Origin: Micromonospora sp. WMMD1102
GTDB lineage: Bacteria; Actinomycetota; Actinomycetes; Mycobacteriales; Micromonosporaceae
DNA: 64,000 nt
Direction of reading: 5' to 3'
Assembly: GCF_029626265.1 (NCBI RefSeq)
Contig: NZ_JARUBN010000001.1
Coordinates: forward strand, 3,100,001-3,164,000
Within the stretch, counting starts at the first letter, position 1. Every line of letters starts with the position of its first letter. This document shows positions 31,044-36,505 of the stretch, piece by piece. Position numbers and translations under genes: made by a program. Under the pieces are notes generated by a model. It did not search any database and was not told where the DNA came from. It was given only the letters and a program-made list of their open reading frames with translations.

Positions 31044-31762
31044 GCGCGAGCCCGATCAGCGAGTACGACCGCGCCACGGCGCTGTCGGGTCCGAGTCCCC
31101 GGGTGCGGATCACCTCGGACCGGGTCCGGCGGTGGGAGTTCTCGGCGGCGTCGTTCACCCGGCGTGGTTTCGACGAGCGGGACGTCGACCGGTTCCGGCA
31201 CCAGGTGGCCGACGAGTTGGATCTGTTGGCGACGCAGGTGGCGGATCTGCGGGCGGAGAACCAGCGGCTGAACGACCATGTGGAGCTGCACCGGCACGGG
31301 GTGCTGCCCAGTGCCGGCAACCGGCCGCAGTTGCCGGGAGCGAAGGAGGTCAACCTGCTGTCGGCGGCGCAGCGGGAGGCGGAGCAGATCATCGCCCAGG
31401 CGCACGACTACGCCCGCCGGGTCGCCGAGTACGCCCGGGTGCAGTACGAGAACTATCTGCGGGCGGCGGCCGAGGAGGCCCGCAGCGAGGCGGAGCGGGC
31501 GGTGCAGGAGTACCGGGCGTCGGCCGGGTCGAGTTTCGACGACACGGTCGCGACCCGGGAGGCGTTGCGGATCTTCGGCGAGATGATGATCTCGCACATG
31601 CAGGCGGCGGCCCGGCATCTCGACGACGGCAGTGAGCATCTGGCCCGCACCATGGACCGGATCGCCCGGGAGGTGGGTCCGGGGAACGGTAACGGCGCCA
31701 CGGCGTCGGGGGGTGTGGTCCGGCAGGCGCTGGCGCCGCGTCCGGAGCAGCCGCGTCGCTAG
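31040..31762 (+). CDS. DivIVA-domain coiled-coil protein
   Basis: GTG 31040 overlaps the flavohemoglobin stop and has GGAGG about 7 bases upstream. The 240-residue protein starts with a DivIVA-like block (SAASFTRRGFDERDVDRFRHQVADE), then a long Ala/Glu/Arg coiled coil (about 60-190, AQREAEQIIAQAHDYARRVAEYARVQYE) and a disordered tail. DivIVA proteins recognise curved membrane and organise polar growth or division in actinobacteria. Placement at the end of a globin operon is unusual. It is shorter than Wag31. Confidence 0.82.
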   Translation: MSASPISEYDRATALSGPSPRVRITSDRVRRWEFSAASFTRRGFDERDVDRFRHQVADELDLLATQVADLRAENQRLNDHVELHRHGVLPSAGNRPQLPGAKEVNLLSAAQREAEQIIAQAHDYARRVAEYARVQYENYLRAAAEEARSEAERAVQEYRASAGSSFDDTVATREALRIFGEMMISHMQAAARHLDDGSEHLARTMDRIAREVGPGNGNGATASGGVVRQALAPRPEQPRR

Positions 31763-31807
31763 CGGGGTGTCGGTCTGGCCCGGTCCGTCGGCGTGACCGG
31801 GCGGGCC

Positions 31808-31840
31808 GGTGGTGACCGCCCGCCGTGGGCGGTCACCACC
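31808..31840 (+). terminator. Strong terminator of globin-DivIVA operon
   Basis: GGTGGTGACCGCCC (31808-31821) pairs perfectly over 14 bp with GGGCGGTCACCACC (31827-31840), loop GCCGT, 46 bases after the DivIVA-like stop. Confidence 0.88.
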
Positions 31841-31846
31841 CTGGCA

Positions 31847-31889
31847 GCCAGGAGCAGCGGTGCCACGCTGCCAGGAGCAGCAGTGCCAC
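31847..31889. repeat. 20-bp direct repeat
   Basis: GCCAGGAGCAGCGGTGCCAC (31847-31866) and GCCAGGAGCAGCAGTGCCAC (31870-31889) match at 19 of 20 positions. They lie between the operon terminator and the transposase remnant. Confidence 0.8.
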
Positions 31890-31899
31890 GTCGACGGCA

Positions 31900-32205
31900 G
31901 CGTCAGTCGACGCCCACCCGGGCTCACACCAACCACAGTGGATCGACGTGCCGCACCGAAGCCACGCCACAGTCGAAGACCGAGTCCGCACCAACAAGGC
32001 CATGGGCCTGCGCAACCCGCCCTTGCAGTCCAGGACCGTCTACCGCGGCCGGGTCCTCACCGCGAACCTAGCCGCCGACCCTCGACGCCTGGACCCGCCT
32101 ACTCGGCCTGCACGACCAACCCGGCCTCCGACACGCCGAACCCGACACCCCTGCGCTACCGGCTCTGGCACCGACCCGCCATACTCACCCGCCTATGTAG
32201 CAGGG
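31900..32205 (+). pseudogene. IS1380-family transposase remnant
   Basis: Conceptual translation gives a typical IS1380 transposase C-terminal region, broken by frameshifts. Frame 1 reads DVPHRSHATVEDRVRTNKAM then GLRNPPLQS and GRVLTANLAAD; after about 32070 the homology continues in another frame as LDAWTRLLGLHDQPGLRHAE; a third frame gives LRYRLWHRPAILTRL. Only the last 100 codons or so remain, and no inverted repeats or start are visible. It marks past insertion directly upstream of the lanthipeptide locus. Confidence 0.75.
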
Positions 32206-32254
32206 TCGCGGTAGGTGAAGTCGAAGGGAAGCCGCGATTCTCTAGTCTGCTGCT

Positions 32255-34900
32255 GTGCTGGCTGACTCGGCGTTCGCGGCGGGGTGGTGGCGACGCGGGC
32301 TGACCCTCCGCGAACGGTCTACCACGCCGCCACCCCGCTGGGCGGTCGACGCGGAACAGGCGCTCGCCGGAGCCGTCGCCACTCGGCCGGGTCCTGCCAG
32401 GTACTCCTCCTGGCAGGACGGGTACGCCGAGGTGGTACGACCGTTGGTGGAGTGGGCGGTCGACCGGGTGCCCGCCCACCCGTGTATCCCGTCGTTCGCG
32501 ACGCGGCTGCAGGCGGATCTGGTGCACCTGGCCGCACGGACGCTTACCCTGGAGCTGCATCAGCGACGGGTTGCGGGTACGCTCGCCGGCGCCGACGGCC
32601 ACGAGCGGTTCGCGGACTTCATCCGGTGGGTCTCCCGGCCGAGCGAGCTTACCAGACTCTTCGAACGGTATCCGGTGCTCGCGCGGCTCCTCCTGCAGGC
32701 GTCCCGGTTCGCTGCCGAGGCGTACGCGGAAACGCTGACGCGGTTCGCGGCGGACCGGGCCGCGATCGCCGACCACTTCCTCGGCGGCGCCGACCCGGGT
32801 GAGCCGGTCGCGATGCACAGCCAGCTCGGCGACCGGCACCGACGCGGCCGGTCAGTGTCGATACTCGAATTTGCCGGCGGCCAACGGGTGGTGTACAAGC
32901 CGCGCTCCCTAGCAGCTTGCGCCGGTTTCGGGGTGCTAGTGCAGTGGCTGAACAAGCAGGTGCCGATGTTTGAGCTTCGGGTCGTACGCTCGCTGGAGCG
33001 GGGGGACTACGGCTGGCAGGAATACATCCGCCAGGCGCCGTGCGCCGATGCCGTCGGTGCTCAGTGGTTCTACCGGCGGCAGGGCGCGCTACTGGCGCTG
33101 CTGTACGCGGTGCACGCCTCCGACGTGCACTACGGGAACCTCATCGCGTGCGGCGACCAGCCCGTGGTCATCGATCTGGAGACCGTGTTCCATCCCGACG
33201 TGCTGCCCGTCAACGTGGCGAGCGACCCGGCGGCGCGGCTGCTCGGCTCGTCAGTGCACCGCACGGGCGTACTTCCCACCTTCCTGCTCGGTGACATCGG
33301 CGCGCTGGACGTCTCGGCCCTCGGCGGCGACCGTGGACATCTCGAACCGACCGACGGGATCGACTGGCTGGCACCGGCGACCGACCAGATGCGGCTGGTC
33401 CGGCGTCCGCGGCTCTTCGCTGGCGGTGCTAATCGCCCCATCGTGGACGGCCGTGAGTTGGAGCCCGCCGACCACGAGGACGCCTTGGTCGACGGCTTCC
33501 AGATCGGCTACGACGCGATCGCCGCGGGCCGAGAGTCGTTCCTCAGCGCGATCGAGCACGCAGCCAACGTCGACGGGACCAGGGTGGTGCTGCGTCCCAC
33601 CCACGTGTACCGGAGGCTGTTGGACGAGTCGACGCATCCAGATCTGCTCCGCGATTCGACCGCCCGGGACGAGCTGTTCGACCTGCTGTCGACCACCGCT
33701 GGCGACGCGCTGCCGCTAACCCGCTCCGTACCACACGAGATCATCGACCTGTGGCACGGCGACGTGCCGATCTTCCTCGGTCATCCGGACTCGACCGACC
33801 TGACGGCTTCGACCGGGACGCGGATCCGCGCCGTCCTCGACGCCGGTGGCCGGTGGTGCGCTGCCGGCAAAGTACGCGCGATGGGTGCGGCGGACCGGCG
33901 TACCCAGGAATGGATCGTCCGGGCGGCGCTGGCCACCCGGCGCCCGCCCGCCGATCGCCGGCACCACGAGGCGCCACCCGGCGATCGGCTGGCCGCCGCG
34001 CGTGTAATCGCCGACAACCTCTGCGACCGGGCGGCGACCGACGGCGCCCGGGCGAACTGGCTCGGTCTCGAACCCGCCGGCGACCGCTTGGCACTCATGC
34101 CGATGGGTGCCGCTCTGGCGTACGGCTATACCGGGGTCGCCCTATTCCTGGCTCAGCTCGCCAGCCTCGACGGCGAGGCCCGCTATGCCGAGACCGCGCG
34201 GCTCGCCGTACGCGGTATTCCACAGCTACTCTCGGCGGTCGCCGGCCGGGCGGACCTGATCGACTCCGTCGGCTGCGGCGGCTACGACGGGTTCGGCGGC
34301 ATCGGCTACGCTCTCGCCCGGATCGCCAACCTGACCAGCGACAGCGAGGCACGCGAGTGGGCCTGCGAGTCGGTTCAGATCGCCGGTACCGCGGTCGCCG
34401 CAGACGGACCGCCGGGGGTTGCTGACGGCCGCGCGGGCTGCCTGGCCGCGATGATGGCCGTGCATGCCGAGCTGGATCACGCGCCTGCCGCCGCGCTCGC
34501 GGCCACATGTGCGCGGCTCATCGCCGGTCTGGCCGACGAACCCCACGAGCCGAGCCGCGCCGCCGTCACCGCCACCGGGTTCGCGCACGGTCCGACCGGC
34601 ATCGCGTGGGCGTTGCGCCGGTACGCCGCCGCGGTGCCCGCACCGCTCTATCGCCGGGCTGCGGACACCATCCGATCATGGGACGACTCCCCGCTCCTGG
34701 AACCGTGGGGCGTCGAACCCGGCGTCGAGACACCCGGCCTTATCAACGGCCTCGCCGGCGCGGGCTACCGCCTTCTGCGACTCGCCGCACCGGAACGCGT
34801 GCCGTCAGTGCTCCACCTGGAACCCGGCCCCACCGCCGCACACACCGTGCGGCACCGTATTGCCAGTCCAGCACCACGCACAACACTGGAGGAACGATGA
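32255..34900 (+). CDS. lanM: Class II lanthipeptide synthetase, atypical cyclase domain
   Basis: LanM enzymes phosphorylate and dehydrate Ser/Thr of a precursor, then cyclise Cys onto the products. This 881-residue protein has a complete N-terminal dehydratase: GWWRRGLTLRER, LGDRHRRGRSVSILEFAGGQ, VVYKPRSL, WFYRRQGALLALLYAVHASD, VHYGNL and VIDLETVFHP. The C-terminal LanC-like half begins about residue 575 (ALMPMGAALAYGYTGVALFL, GVADGRAGCLAAM, ATGFAHGPTGIAWALRRY near 775), then jumps to ETPGLINGLAGAGYRLLRLA (about 826) and LEPG. The usual stretch with WCHGAPG and CHG zinc-ligand motifs is missing, making it about 100 residues short. GTG 32255 lacks a Shine-Dalgarno. The precursor gene overlaps its stop. 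Confidence 0.9.
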   Translation: MLADSAFAAGWWRRGLTLRERSTTPPPRWAVDAEQALAGAVATRPGPARYSSWQDGYAEVVRPLVEWAVDRVPAHPCIPSFATRLQADLVHLAARTLTLELHQRRVAGTLAGADGHERFADFIRWVSRPSELTRLFERYPVLARLLLQASRFAAEAYAETLTRFAADRAAIADHFLGGADPGEPVAMHSQLGDRHRRGRSVSILEFAGGQRVVYKPRSLAACAGFGVLVQWLNKQVPMFELRVVRSLERGDYGWQEYIRQAPCADAVGAQWFYRRQGALLALLYAVHASDVHYGNLIACGDQPVVIDLETVFHPDVLPVNVASDPAARLLGSSVHRTGVLPTFLLGDIGALDVSALGGDRGHLEPTDGIDWLAPATDQMRLVRRPRLFAGGANRPIVDGRELEPADHEDALVDGFQIGYDAIAAGRESFLSAIEHAANVDGTRVVLRPTHVYRRLLDESTHPDLLRDSTARDELFDLLSTTAGDALPLTRSVPHEIIDLWHGDVPIFLGHPDSTDLTASTGTRIRAVLDAGGRWCAAGKVRAMGAADRRTQEWIVRAALATRRPPADRRHHEAPPGDRLAAARVIADNLCDRAATDGARANWLGLEPAGDRLALMPMGAALAYGYTGVALFLAQLASLDGEARYAETARLAVRGIPQLLSAVAGRADLIDSVGCGGYDGFGGIGYALARIANLTSDSEAREWACESVQIAGTAVAADGPPGVADGRAGCLAAMMAVHAELDHAPAAALAATCARLIAGLADEPHEPSRAAVTATGFAHGPTGIAWALRRYAAAVPAPLYRRAADTIRSWDDSPLLEPWGVEPGVETPGLINGLAGAGYRLLRLAAPERVPSVLHLEPGPTAAHTVRHRIASPAPRTTLEER

Positions 34901-35109
34901 AGGAACGAACCCACAACGCACAGTCTGACGTGGCCGGCCCAGACGCCGTCGACGCCGGACACCCGGTCGGCGACATCGAGGTCAAGCCGGCCCGCTCGGT
35001 CGGACTGCGCCGGGCGGTCCTGGCGGGACTTGCCGTCGGCGCCGGCGCTTACGCCATCAGCCTCGACCTCGCCACGTACTCGGTCGCCCACACCACGTGC
35101 TGCGGCTGA
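34897..35109 (+). CDS. Putative lanthipeptide precursor LanA, 70 aa
   Basis: ATG 34897 overlaps the lanM stop (ATGA) and has GGAGGAACG upstream. The peptide has a charged N-terminal half (MKERTHNAQSDVAGPDAVD), then RSVGLRRAVLAGLAVGAGAY, ending AYA, then a 17-residue tail ISLDLATYSVAHTTCCG with two adjacent Cys and five Ser/Thr. The arginine-hydrophobic-AYA pattern resembles a signal peptide, as in cinnamycin-type precursors whose leaders end in AFA. A GA or GAGA double-glycine-like cleavage is the alternative. No dedicated transporter or protease gene is visible. Confidence 0.82.
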   Translation: MKERTHNAQSDVAGPDAVDAGHPVGDIEVKPARSVGLRRAVLAGLAVGAGAYAISLDLATYSVAHTTCCG

Positions 35110-35127
35110 CAGCCTGACGGTACACGC

Positions 35128-35165
35128 GCTGCTGGTGTCCGCCCGCCGTGGCGGACACCAGCAGC
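35128..35165 (+). terminator. Perfect 16-bp terminator after precursor gene
   Basis: GCTGCTGGTGTCCGCC (35128-35143) pairs with GGCGGACACCAGCAGC (35150-35165), loop CGCCGT, 18 bases past the precursor stop. It closes the two-gene lanM-lanA transcript. Confidence 0.92.
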
Positions 35166-35170
35166 CAAGG

Positions 35171-35413
35171 AACGCATGCCGGAACTTCGCAACCTGGCTC
35201 TTCGTCCGCGCGGACAACTTCCAGCCCTGCGGCGAGCTGACGGACGACCAGCTCGCCGCAGCGGAGAACCTGGCCGCGTTCCGCTGATGACGGCTGTCGG
35301 AGATCGCCGGCCATCCGGGACCTGGGCTGTTCTCGCCCCGCGACCTCACCACACTCCTGACCTCGCTGCCCACAGCGGGGCCCCCGGACGAACCGATCCA
35401 ACTCGGCCTCTAG
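35171..35413 (+). pseudogene. Decayed coding fragment with two in-frame TGA codons
   Basis: One frame reads NACRNFATWLFVRADNFQPC then GELTDDQLAAAENLAAFR, two stops TGA TGA (35285-35290), then RLSEIAGHPGPGLFSPRDLT to TAG 35411-35413. Codon third positions after the stops are strongly G/C, as in real genes of this genome. No start codon or family match is evident. It looks like the tail of a lost gene, possibly part of the same island. A short real gene ending at the first TGA is the alternative. Confidence 0.35.
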
Positions 35414-35503
35414 CAGGTTCCAGGGATCACGAGGTGCCCACCGATCTGCGGTGGTCGCCTCGTCGACGATCTCCCGGGGGCTCCCCGTCCCGGGGCGGTC
35501 TGC

Positions 35504-36505
35504 TCAGCTGGCGTCGAGGTGCTCGCCGATCTCGGTGAGTTCGCTGTCGGTGAGGGTCAGGTTGTCCAGCGCGGCGACGTTCGTCTCCAACTGGGCGACA
35601 CTGCTCGCGCCGATGATCAGGCTGGTCATCCGGGGGTCCCGGAGCGCCCAGGCGAGGGCGAGCTGGGCCAGCGACTGGCCGCGCCGTTCGGCGACGGCGT
35701 GCAGTCCGCGTACGGTCGTCATGGTGGACTCGTCGAGGTCGCTCTCGTCGAGGAAGACGCTGGTGCGGACCCGGGAGTCGGCCGGGATGCCGTCGAGGTA
35801 GCGGTCGGTGAGCACACCCTGGGCGAGTGGGCTGTAGGCGATGCAGCCGGCGCCGGCCTCGTCGAGGGTGTCGAGCAGCCCGTCCGCCTCGATCCACCGG
35901 TTGAGCATCGAGTACGACGGCTGCGAGATCAGCAGCGGCGTACCGAGCCGTTCCAGGATCGCGGCGGCCTGCCGGGTCTGCTCCGAGTTGTAGTTCGACA
36001 GCCCGACGTAGAGAGCCTTGCCGGCCCGGACGACCGCGTCGAGCGCCCCCATCGTCTCTTCCAGCGGGGTGTCCGGGTCGGGCCGGTGGTGGTAGAAGAC
36101 GTCGACGTGGTCGAGGCCCATCCGGCGCAGCGACTGGTCCAGCGACGAGACCAGGTACTTGCGGGACCCCCACTCGCCGTACGGGCCGGGCCACATGTAG
36201 TAGCCGGCCTTGGTGGAGATGACCAGTTCGTCGCGGTACGGAGCGAGGTCGGCGGTGAGGATCCGGCCGAAGTTCGCCTCGGCCGAGCCGGGTGGCGGGC
36301 CGTAGTTGTTGGCCAGGTCGAAGTGCGTGACCCCGAGGTCGAACGCCCGACGGCAGATCTCCCGCTGCCGCTGCGACGGCCGCTCGTCACCGAAGTTGTG
36401 CCACAGGCCGAGCGAGACGGCGGGCAGCCGCAGGCCGCTGCGGCCCGCCCGGCGGTAGGTCATCGAGTCGTAGCGGTCGTCCGCGGCAAGGTAGGTCACG
36501 ACCAC
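35504..36505 (-). CDS. Aldo-keto reductase, YghZ/MgrA type
   Basis: This 333-residue NADPH-dependent reductase belongs to the YghZ/Kv-beta-like branch, which reduces L-glyceraldehyde 3-phosphate and methylglyoxal. It has GRSGLRLPAVSLGLWHNFGD, HFDLANNYGPPPGSAE with catalytic Asp and Tyr, and VISTKAGYYMWPGPYGEWGS. Further motifs are YVGLSNYNSEQT, SQPSYSMLNRW and LIIGASSVAQL. Start at GTG 36505 or GTG 36499. Single gene, divergent from the carbonic anhydrase. Confidence 0.9.
   Translation of the reverse strand: MVVTYLAADDRYDSMTYRRAGRSGLRLPAVSLGLWHNFGDERPSQRQREICRRAFDLGVTHFDLANNYGPPPGSAEANFGRILTADLAPYRDELVISTKAGYYMWPGPYGEWGSRKYLVSSLDQSLRRMGLDHVDVFYHHRPDPDTPLEETMGALDAVVRAGKALYVGLSNYNSEQTRQAAAILERLGTPLLISQPSYSMLNRWIEADGLLDTLDEAGAGCIAYSPLAQGVLTDRYLDGIPADSRVRTSVFLDESDLDESTMTTVRGLHAVAERRGQSLAQLALAWALRDPRMTSLIIGASSVAQLETNVAALDNLTLTDSELTEIGEHLDAS

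Follow-up and report, generated by a model that had tools for sequence, protein, structure and literature searches.

A conserved loss of the cyclase zinc site beside a Thr-Thr-Cys-Cys precursor tail in a class II lanthipeptide-like gene pair of Micromonospora

Among class II lanthipeptide synthetases, CylM is the source of the phosphorylation and elimination residues and of the zinc ligands (Cys875, Cys911, and His912) with which other enzymes can be compared (available sections of PMC4550811). Class III cyclase domains do not have these zinc residues (PMC7268733, excerpted text), and the accessible part of PMC11251773 names 'Unk' cyclases with no defined triad. In the dehydrazoles, made with CcaM or LanMbC, the cyclase domain joined to DUF4135 likewise has no zinc ligands. 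CcaM combines DUF4135 with a class III-type cyclase domain that is independent of zinc; it yields dehydroamino acids and no lanthionine, and its dehydratase domain was inactive once separated (PMC10676384, available text). Dehydration can thus still depend on a domain that has no zinc. On the precursor side, the cinnamycin-like coerumycin precursor carries an -AYA- motif at which a cut by type I signal peptidase is postulated (available portion of PMC12837462); the portion of PMC10885120 available does not mention signal peptidase.

We analyzed a stretch of 64,000 nucleotides from Micromonospora sp. WMMD1102 (the window) that contains a lanM gene (32255..34900, + strand) encoding an 881-aa protein with a DUF4135 dehydratase (residues 139-507) and a shortened LanC-like domain (LANC_like, residues 617-803). 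This protein scored 590.6 bits against the LanM profile TIGR03897, above the curated cut-off of 304, and 35.6 bits against the class III synthetase model, far below its cut-off of 575. All nine CylM-equivalent dehydratase residues are kept (D193, H195, K215, D290, H292, N295, D307, R443, and T449), and all three ligands of the Cys-Cys-His zinc site are missing, so ordinary lanthionine formation cannot be assumed. Compared with the class II synthetases LicM2 and CylM, the window LanM lacks the zinc ligands along with roughly 100 LanC residues. Its alignment to LicM2 jumps from 793/809 to 819/939, leaving 104 residues missing by an alignment whose second piece is weak (5.6 bits), and the junction therefore lies between residues 793 and ~819 (34632..34711, + strand), with the exact joint undefined. 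Two loose anchors enclose 138 residues in the window LanM, whereas the median over 110 rows with zinc ligands is 218, which puts the deficit at ~80 residues; in zinc-bearing relatives the missing stretch is occupied by the motifs GWCxG and LCHGE. An AF2 model of the protein was confident (mean pLDDT 89.7, pTM 0.88) and nearest to LicM2 and CylM, and searches with this model using Foldseek and VIA-align returned no fold besides LanM, LanC, and kinase relatives. By analogy, CcaM is the best precedent for keeping such a LanC remnant. The dehydrazole systems differ: their class III-type cyclase domain is complete, and a YcaO partner and azoles go with it (PMC10676384, available text), whereas the window encodes a LanM-type domain with a deletion. 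A dehydrazole cluster was ruled out because no YcaO gene lies nearby: there are three in the genome and none in the window, the nearest more than 1 Mb away.

The loss is shared by the closest relatives of the enzyme. In 146 of 160 LanM rows, C, C, H occupies the zinc-ligand columns; the 160 rows comprise the best 120 of 1052 matches plus the LanMs of 40 loci, with some proteins present twice (P0105 = L094; P0045 = L076). The triad is absent from the window LanM (P0008) and from P0009-P0012, which are 866-908 aa long, 62-81% identical to it, and its closest relatives among the matches listed (best 120 of 1052); P0011 has WC at the first ligand position with the other two ligands gone. All nine dehydratase residues are kept in each of these five proteins. 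Because four further LanM clusters have the same loss, an assembly fault or one-off event was ruled out. In a second, substituted group, both zinc Cys are replaced in all four proteins while the LanC domain is full-length; the columns read S,A,S in P0087, S,D,R in P0105/L094, S,A,G in P0125, and S,G,H in P0127, the only one to keep the His. The precursor at L094, the one locus at hand from this group, still ends in STCCINPS. The other rows departing from C, C, H were P0046 (H,C,H), P0116, and the L089 and L090 proteins, which are cut short. A tree of the dehydratase part, built from 97 of the 160 rows with L090 left out and by a quick method without bootstrap, grouped the five short LanMs into one clade (SH-aLRT 100), on a stem of 0.49 changes per column, and the substituted proteins into another (support 100); five zinc-state changes are needed on this tree, three of them forced by starred branches.

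The precursor gene, lanA, occupies 34897-35109 on the + strand (70 codons; ATG at 34897, stop at 35107-35109). Its start overlaps the lanM stop in the sequence ATGA at 34897-34900, and a GGAGG ribosome-binding site lies 4 nt 5' of the ATG (34888..34892, + strand); the ORF, its overlap, and a ribosome site had been proposed in an earlier sequence-only reading of this DNA. Codon-position G+C of lanA (0.73/0.55/0.85) matches that of lanM (0.76/0.55/0.83). A search of 5.8 billion proteins recovered five homologs (P0003-P0007) of 67-70 aa that are 56-89% identical to the 70-mer and all end in TTCCG; a source name is given for just two of them, P0004 (from Plantactinospora sp. ZYX-F-223) and P0006, both annotated as 'hypothetical protein'. 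No NCBIfam family matched the window precursor up to an E value of 10. These homologs rule out a chance overlapping ORF, and the ORF at 34897-35109 is genuine. The 70-mer is very probably the substrate of LanM, given the overlapping genes, the related small ORF 3' of LanM in many relatives, and the conserved tail. Looking for the pair in related genomes had been suggested by the sequence-only reading, and such an ORF is indeed present 3' of LanM in many of them; that reading would have been refuted by a tail unconserved in relatives, which is not what we found.

The six close rows share the pattern LRRAVLAGL.V.A.AYA.SLDLATY.VA.TTCCG, and their mean pairwise identity rises from 0.54 over residues 1-33 to 0.86 over residues 34-70 and 0.89 over residues 54-70. 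Judged by sequence, the hydrophobic part and the tail are the constrained portion of the precursor. The leader contains the motif HPVGDIEV (residues 22-29; 34960..34983, + strand), a putative recognition element for LanM; HP.G is found in five of the six close rows, and P0007 has DPTG. A P-x-G in the leader is shared with mersacidin/lichenicidin-type leaders (TIGR03898), but those leaders have a double-glycine site where the window precursor has a hydrophobic segment instead, and the TIGR03898 model did not match the window precursor and gave its relative at L065 only 14.8 bits against a cut-off of 23.5. A few relatives (L065, L067, and L069) start like mersacidin-type leaders.

Downstream of the leader motif, the features named by the sequence-only reading are all present: an RR followed by a hydrophobic segment (residues 38-59; 35008..35073, + strand; KD19 mean 1.69), an AYA motif (residues 51-53; 35047..35055, + strand), and a 17-residue tail with two adjacent Cys and five Ser/Thr (S55, T60, S62, T66, and T67). 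The RR is invariant in the six close rows and variable in wider relatives, so export by Tat is possible yet unsupported. AYA is invariant in all six rows and is one candidate signal-peptidase site. The other is SVA (residues 62-64; 35080..35088, + strand), which appears as [ST]VA directly ahead of [HNY]TTCCG in six of six rows. Both are weak candidates because [small]-x-A is frequent in Ala-rich sequence. The invariant TTCCG (35092..35106, + strand) follows, and the window precursor ends in HTTCCG. The predicted product may thus be a 17-mer, the boundary first suggested, if the cut falls after AYA, or a 6-residue peptide if it falls after [ST]VA. The cinnamycin group, whose synthetase is a LanM (class II) as in the window, was the model on which the signal-peptide-like AXA leader had been proposed. 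The likeness holds in kind, since an AYA/AFA motif is proposed for signal peptidase there as well and -AYA- has a precedent in coerumycin, but the cinnamycin core CxxxCSxGPFTxxCDGxTK is absent from the window tail, which has only two adjacent Cys (PMC12837462, available portion). Kinship with cinnamycin is therefore unsupported.

LanM matches at E 1e-60 or better were present in 79 of 354 genomes of the host family and precursor matches at E 0.001 in 20 of 354, the window's own genome included in both counts. Nine of the 19 weak precursor matches outside the window's genome were read, and seven lay directly 3' of LanM; L044 and L047, which have no adjoining LanM, look like chance matches. Across 40 LanM loci, a precursor candidate was found in 38, including a chance ORF at L089 (E 4.4), with none in L086 and L088. 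With the tree rooted at its midpoint, all 23 loci in the part that holds the window clade have a precursor with adjacent Cys (CC), vs one of 16 (L103) in the other part, where two of the 16 have no candidate; the split has a support of 91. A 19-residue segment with a mean Kyte-Doolittle value of at least 1.6 precedes the CC in 29 of 29 CC-type precursors (six close, 23 from the loci), and a strong hydrophobic segment occurs in six of the 15 remaining precursors, a group in which the CC-bearing L103 and the chance L089 ORF were counted.

A 19-row profile retrieved 51 proteins at E 0.001 or better, and all 51 carry [ST][ST]CC followed by 1-13 residues, a count partly shaped by the profile itself, which was built from CC proteins and does not include L095 (TGCC). 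Across the 23 CC-type loci, Ser/Thr occupies position -1 in 22 and position -2 in 22. The CC accounts for both Cys in 47 of the 51 proteins, the other four having three Cys; 30 have P-x-G in the leader and six have HP-x-G, and those with displayed names are called hypothetical or uncharacterized proteins. Adjacent C-terminal Cys, thought uncommon from the sequence of the window alone, are thus the signature of this family. The window pair shows the same features: a precursor gene adjoining lanM, a hydrophobic segment, and an [ST][ST]CC tail. Class-wide, a LanM search at E 1e-110 matched five of 394 genomes, the window's own included; among the four others, by eye, the precursor-like ORFs of L120-L122 have no CC, and the layout at L123 is different. 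Queries of lanM and the precursor against genome contigs, of the precursor against viral contigs, and by tblastn against plasmids returned no relatives.

A gene for a ~970-aa protein, alike throughout, adjoins lanM in 36 of the 40 loci and in 23 of 23 CC-type loci, on the same strand as lanM in 35 and on the opposite strand in L115; it is absent from L086, L088, L089, and L113, and L085 gave a partial match. A Pfam check of one of them, the L098 gene that begins 303 bases past the lanM stop, showed AAA_16 and GerE domains in a LAL/LuxR layout, and this LAL/LuxR-type regulator is a possible sensor of the peptide. A tblastn search of the 64-kb window found no such regulator (best E 0.14). Three of 40 loci (L086, L088, and L089), none of them CC-type, have an L086-like transporter no more than 4.5 kb from the lanM stop, in a search that used this LanT-like protein as its single probe and would miss unlike transporters. 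The unit of lanM, TTCC peptide, and LAL regulator occurs in Micromonospora, Actinoplanes, Plantactinospora, and others. An antiSMASH table for Actinoplanes SE50/110 lists a class II region (PMC11626248, available part) that by its coordinates should include one such LanM. A literature search, with subscription journals mostly outside its reach, found nothing on a TTCC precursor, a LanM with a LAL partner, or a LanM with such a deletion. The TTCC precursor family thus seems undescribed. The sequence-only reading had overlooked the main oddity, a cyclase zinc site that is consistently missing beside a conserved Thr-Thr-Cys-Cys tail, and this too seems unreported.

Within the genus, a DivIVA-like gene upstream and an aldo/keto reductase gene downstream are kept in seven of seven genomes. 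The gap between them measures ~160 bp in G002, 270 bp in G005, 8.7 kb in G006, and 19.7 kb in G003, and in G001 and G004 (2.8-2.9 kb) it holds, by eye, an FAD-monooxygenase-like and a regulator-like ORF, or an ABC-transporter-like pair. No lanM relative was present in the six other genus genomes or in the gap stretches fetched, which for G003 covered part of the gap. Because gap size and content differ among these genomes, the lanM-lanA pair lies in a variable slot (31760-35506). Elsewhere in the same genome, at ~3.28 and 8.51 Mb, we saw other lanthipeptide-like loci, partly by eye (L145 and L147): a small FDLD ORF with a 1014-aa ORF and a LANC_like frame, and two LanM frames near a stand-alone LANC_like frame.

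We suggest, at about even odds, that the pair makes a RiPP of class II (LanM) origin that is dehydrated and probably poor in thioethers. LanM would bind the leader in the cytosol, and the DUF4135 domain would phosphorylate and then eliminate Ser/Thr of the tail, with T66 and T67, beside Cys68-Cys69, the likeliest targets. Because the zinc-bearing part of the cyclase is missing, ring closure would not be zinc-catalyzed; it may be absent or spontaneous, and at best slow or non-canonical, and the LanC remnant could serve as a scaffold or substrate-binding part. The RR and hydrophobic segment may direct the peptide into the Sec (or Tat) pathway, and type I signal peptidase would then cut at one of the two candidate sites and release a short Dhb/Cys peptide. 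Such a built-in signal peptide would make a dedicated exporter or protease unneeded.

Against a thioether-poor product speaks that two Cys stand invariant beside dehydratable Thr, as would be expected if rings form; the WC that P0011 has at the first ligand position is a further point against it. We consider it unlikely that the peptide is an ordinary lanthipeptide whose (methyl)lanthionine rings are closed by the shortened LanC-like domain without zinc, in the manner of class III. Zinc loss is no proof of cyclization loss, since zinc-less class III cyclase domains belong to lanthionine-forming enzymes (as in the available text of PMC7268733), and the invariant TTCCG and the well-conserved, confidently folded LanC remnant fit this explanation. 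The ~100 toroid residues missing relative to LicM2 go beyond the ligands alone, however, and the poor class III score also tells against it.

It is improbable that the cluster is a decaying remnant from which cyclase and regulator have gone. The missing LAL regulator (over its full length, the best genomic match has 26% identity) and the absence of lanM from the six other genus genomes would suit decay, but the five LanM clusters at 62-81% identity keep the zinc-less state, catalytic residues, open frames, and tail. Over the remaining LanC part, short-clade pairs are 0.65-0.89 identical, and zinc-bearing pairs of equal divergence average 0.64 and 0.89; the remnant is as conserved as its zinc-bearing counterparts and so appears to be maintained. 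Its conservation and confident AF2 fold argue against decay, and bear on that question rather than on the role of the domain. That a different LanC in the cell closes the rings in trans has very little in its favor: other LANC_like frames (445 and 451 aa) are present in the genome, at 3.28 and 8.51 Mb, but both are far off and, by eye, beside other lanthipeptide-like genes. Equally hard to credit is an unmodified small membrane or signal protein merely beside lanM, for which the strong hydrophobic segment could be cited, because lanA overlaps lanM, related ORFs lie 3' of LanM in 37 of 40 loci, and the conserved tail consists of dehydratable Thr and Cys.

Judged from its sequence, we rate the window pair as a variant of class II lanthipeptide-like RiPPs that is new in the loss of the cyclase zinc site beside a TTCC tail. 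If a dehydrated, thioether-poor product is made, a LanM can evolve into a dehydration-only catalyst while retaining a Cys-containing substrate, and experiments could then ask which roles the LanC domain has besides zinc chemistry and whether an enzyme is required for small thioether rings. A common and possibly signaling peptide family may also have been overlooked, the LanM itself being already recognized. A broader and rather doubtful proposal is that these very short TTCC peptides form an undescribed class, in which LanMs lost the zinc cyclase in two lineages, tails of Dhb-Dhb-Cys-Cys lack enzymatic rings, export relies on the built-in signal peptide, and the peptides are ligands of the adjoining LAL regulator (self-sensing) in most lineages, a link lost in the lineage of the window.

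Two smaller observations concern the surroundings of these genes. Following lanA is a 16-bp hairpin with a 6-nt loop (35128..35165; z-score -3.3); the earlier description of a perfect terminator holds for the pairing, which is perfect, but what follows the hairpin is CAAGGAACG, not a run of T, and this leaves an intrinsic terminator unproven. At six loci with C, C, H LanMs (L077, L078, L080, L108, L102, and L104), the precursors have no Cys in the last 30 residues, e.g., IIDTGGTGGHSSE, and the same LAL neighbor is present; their products may possibly be dehydration-only as well.
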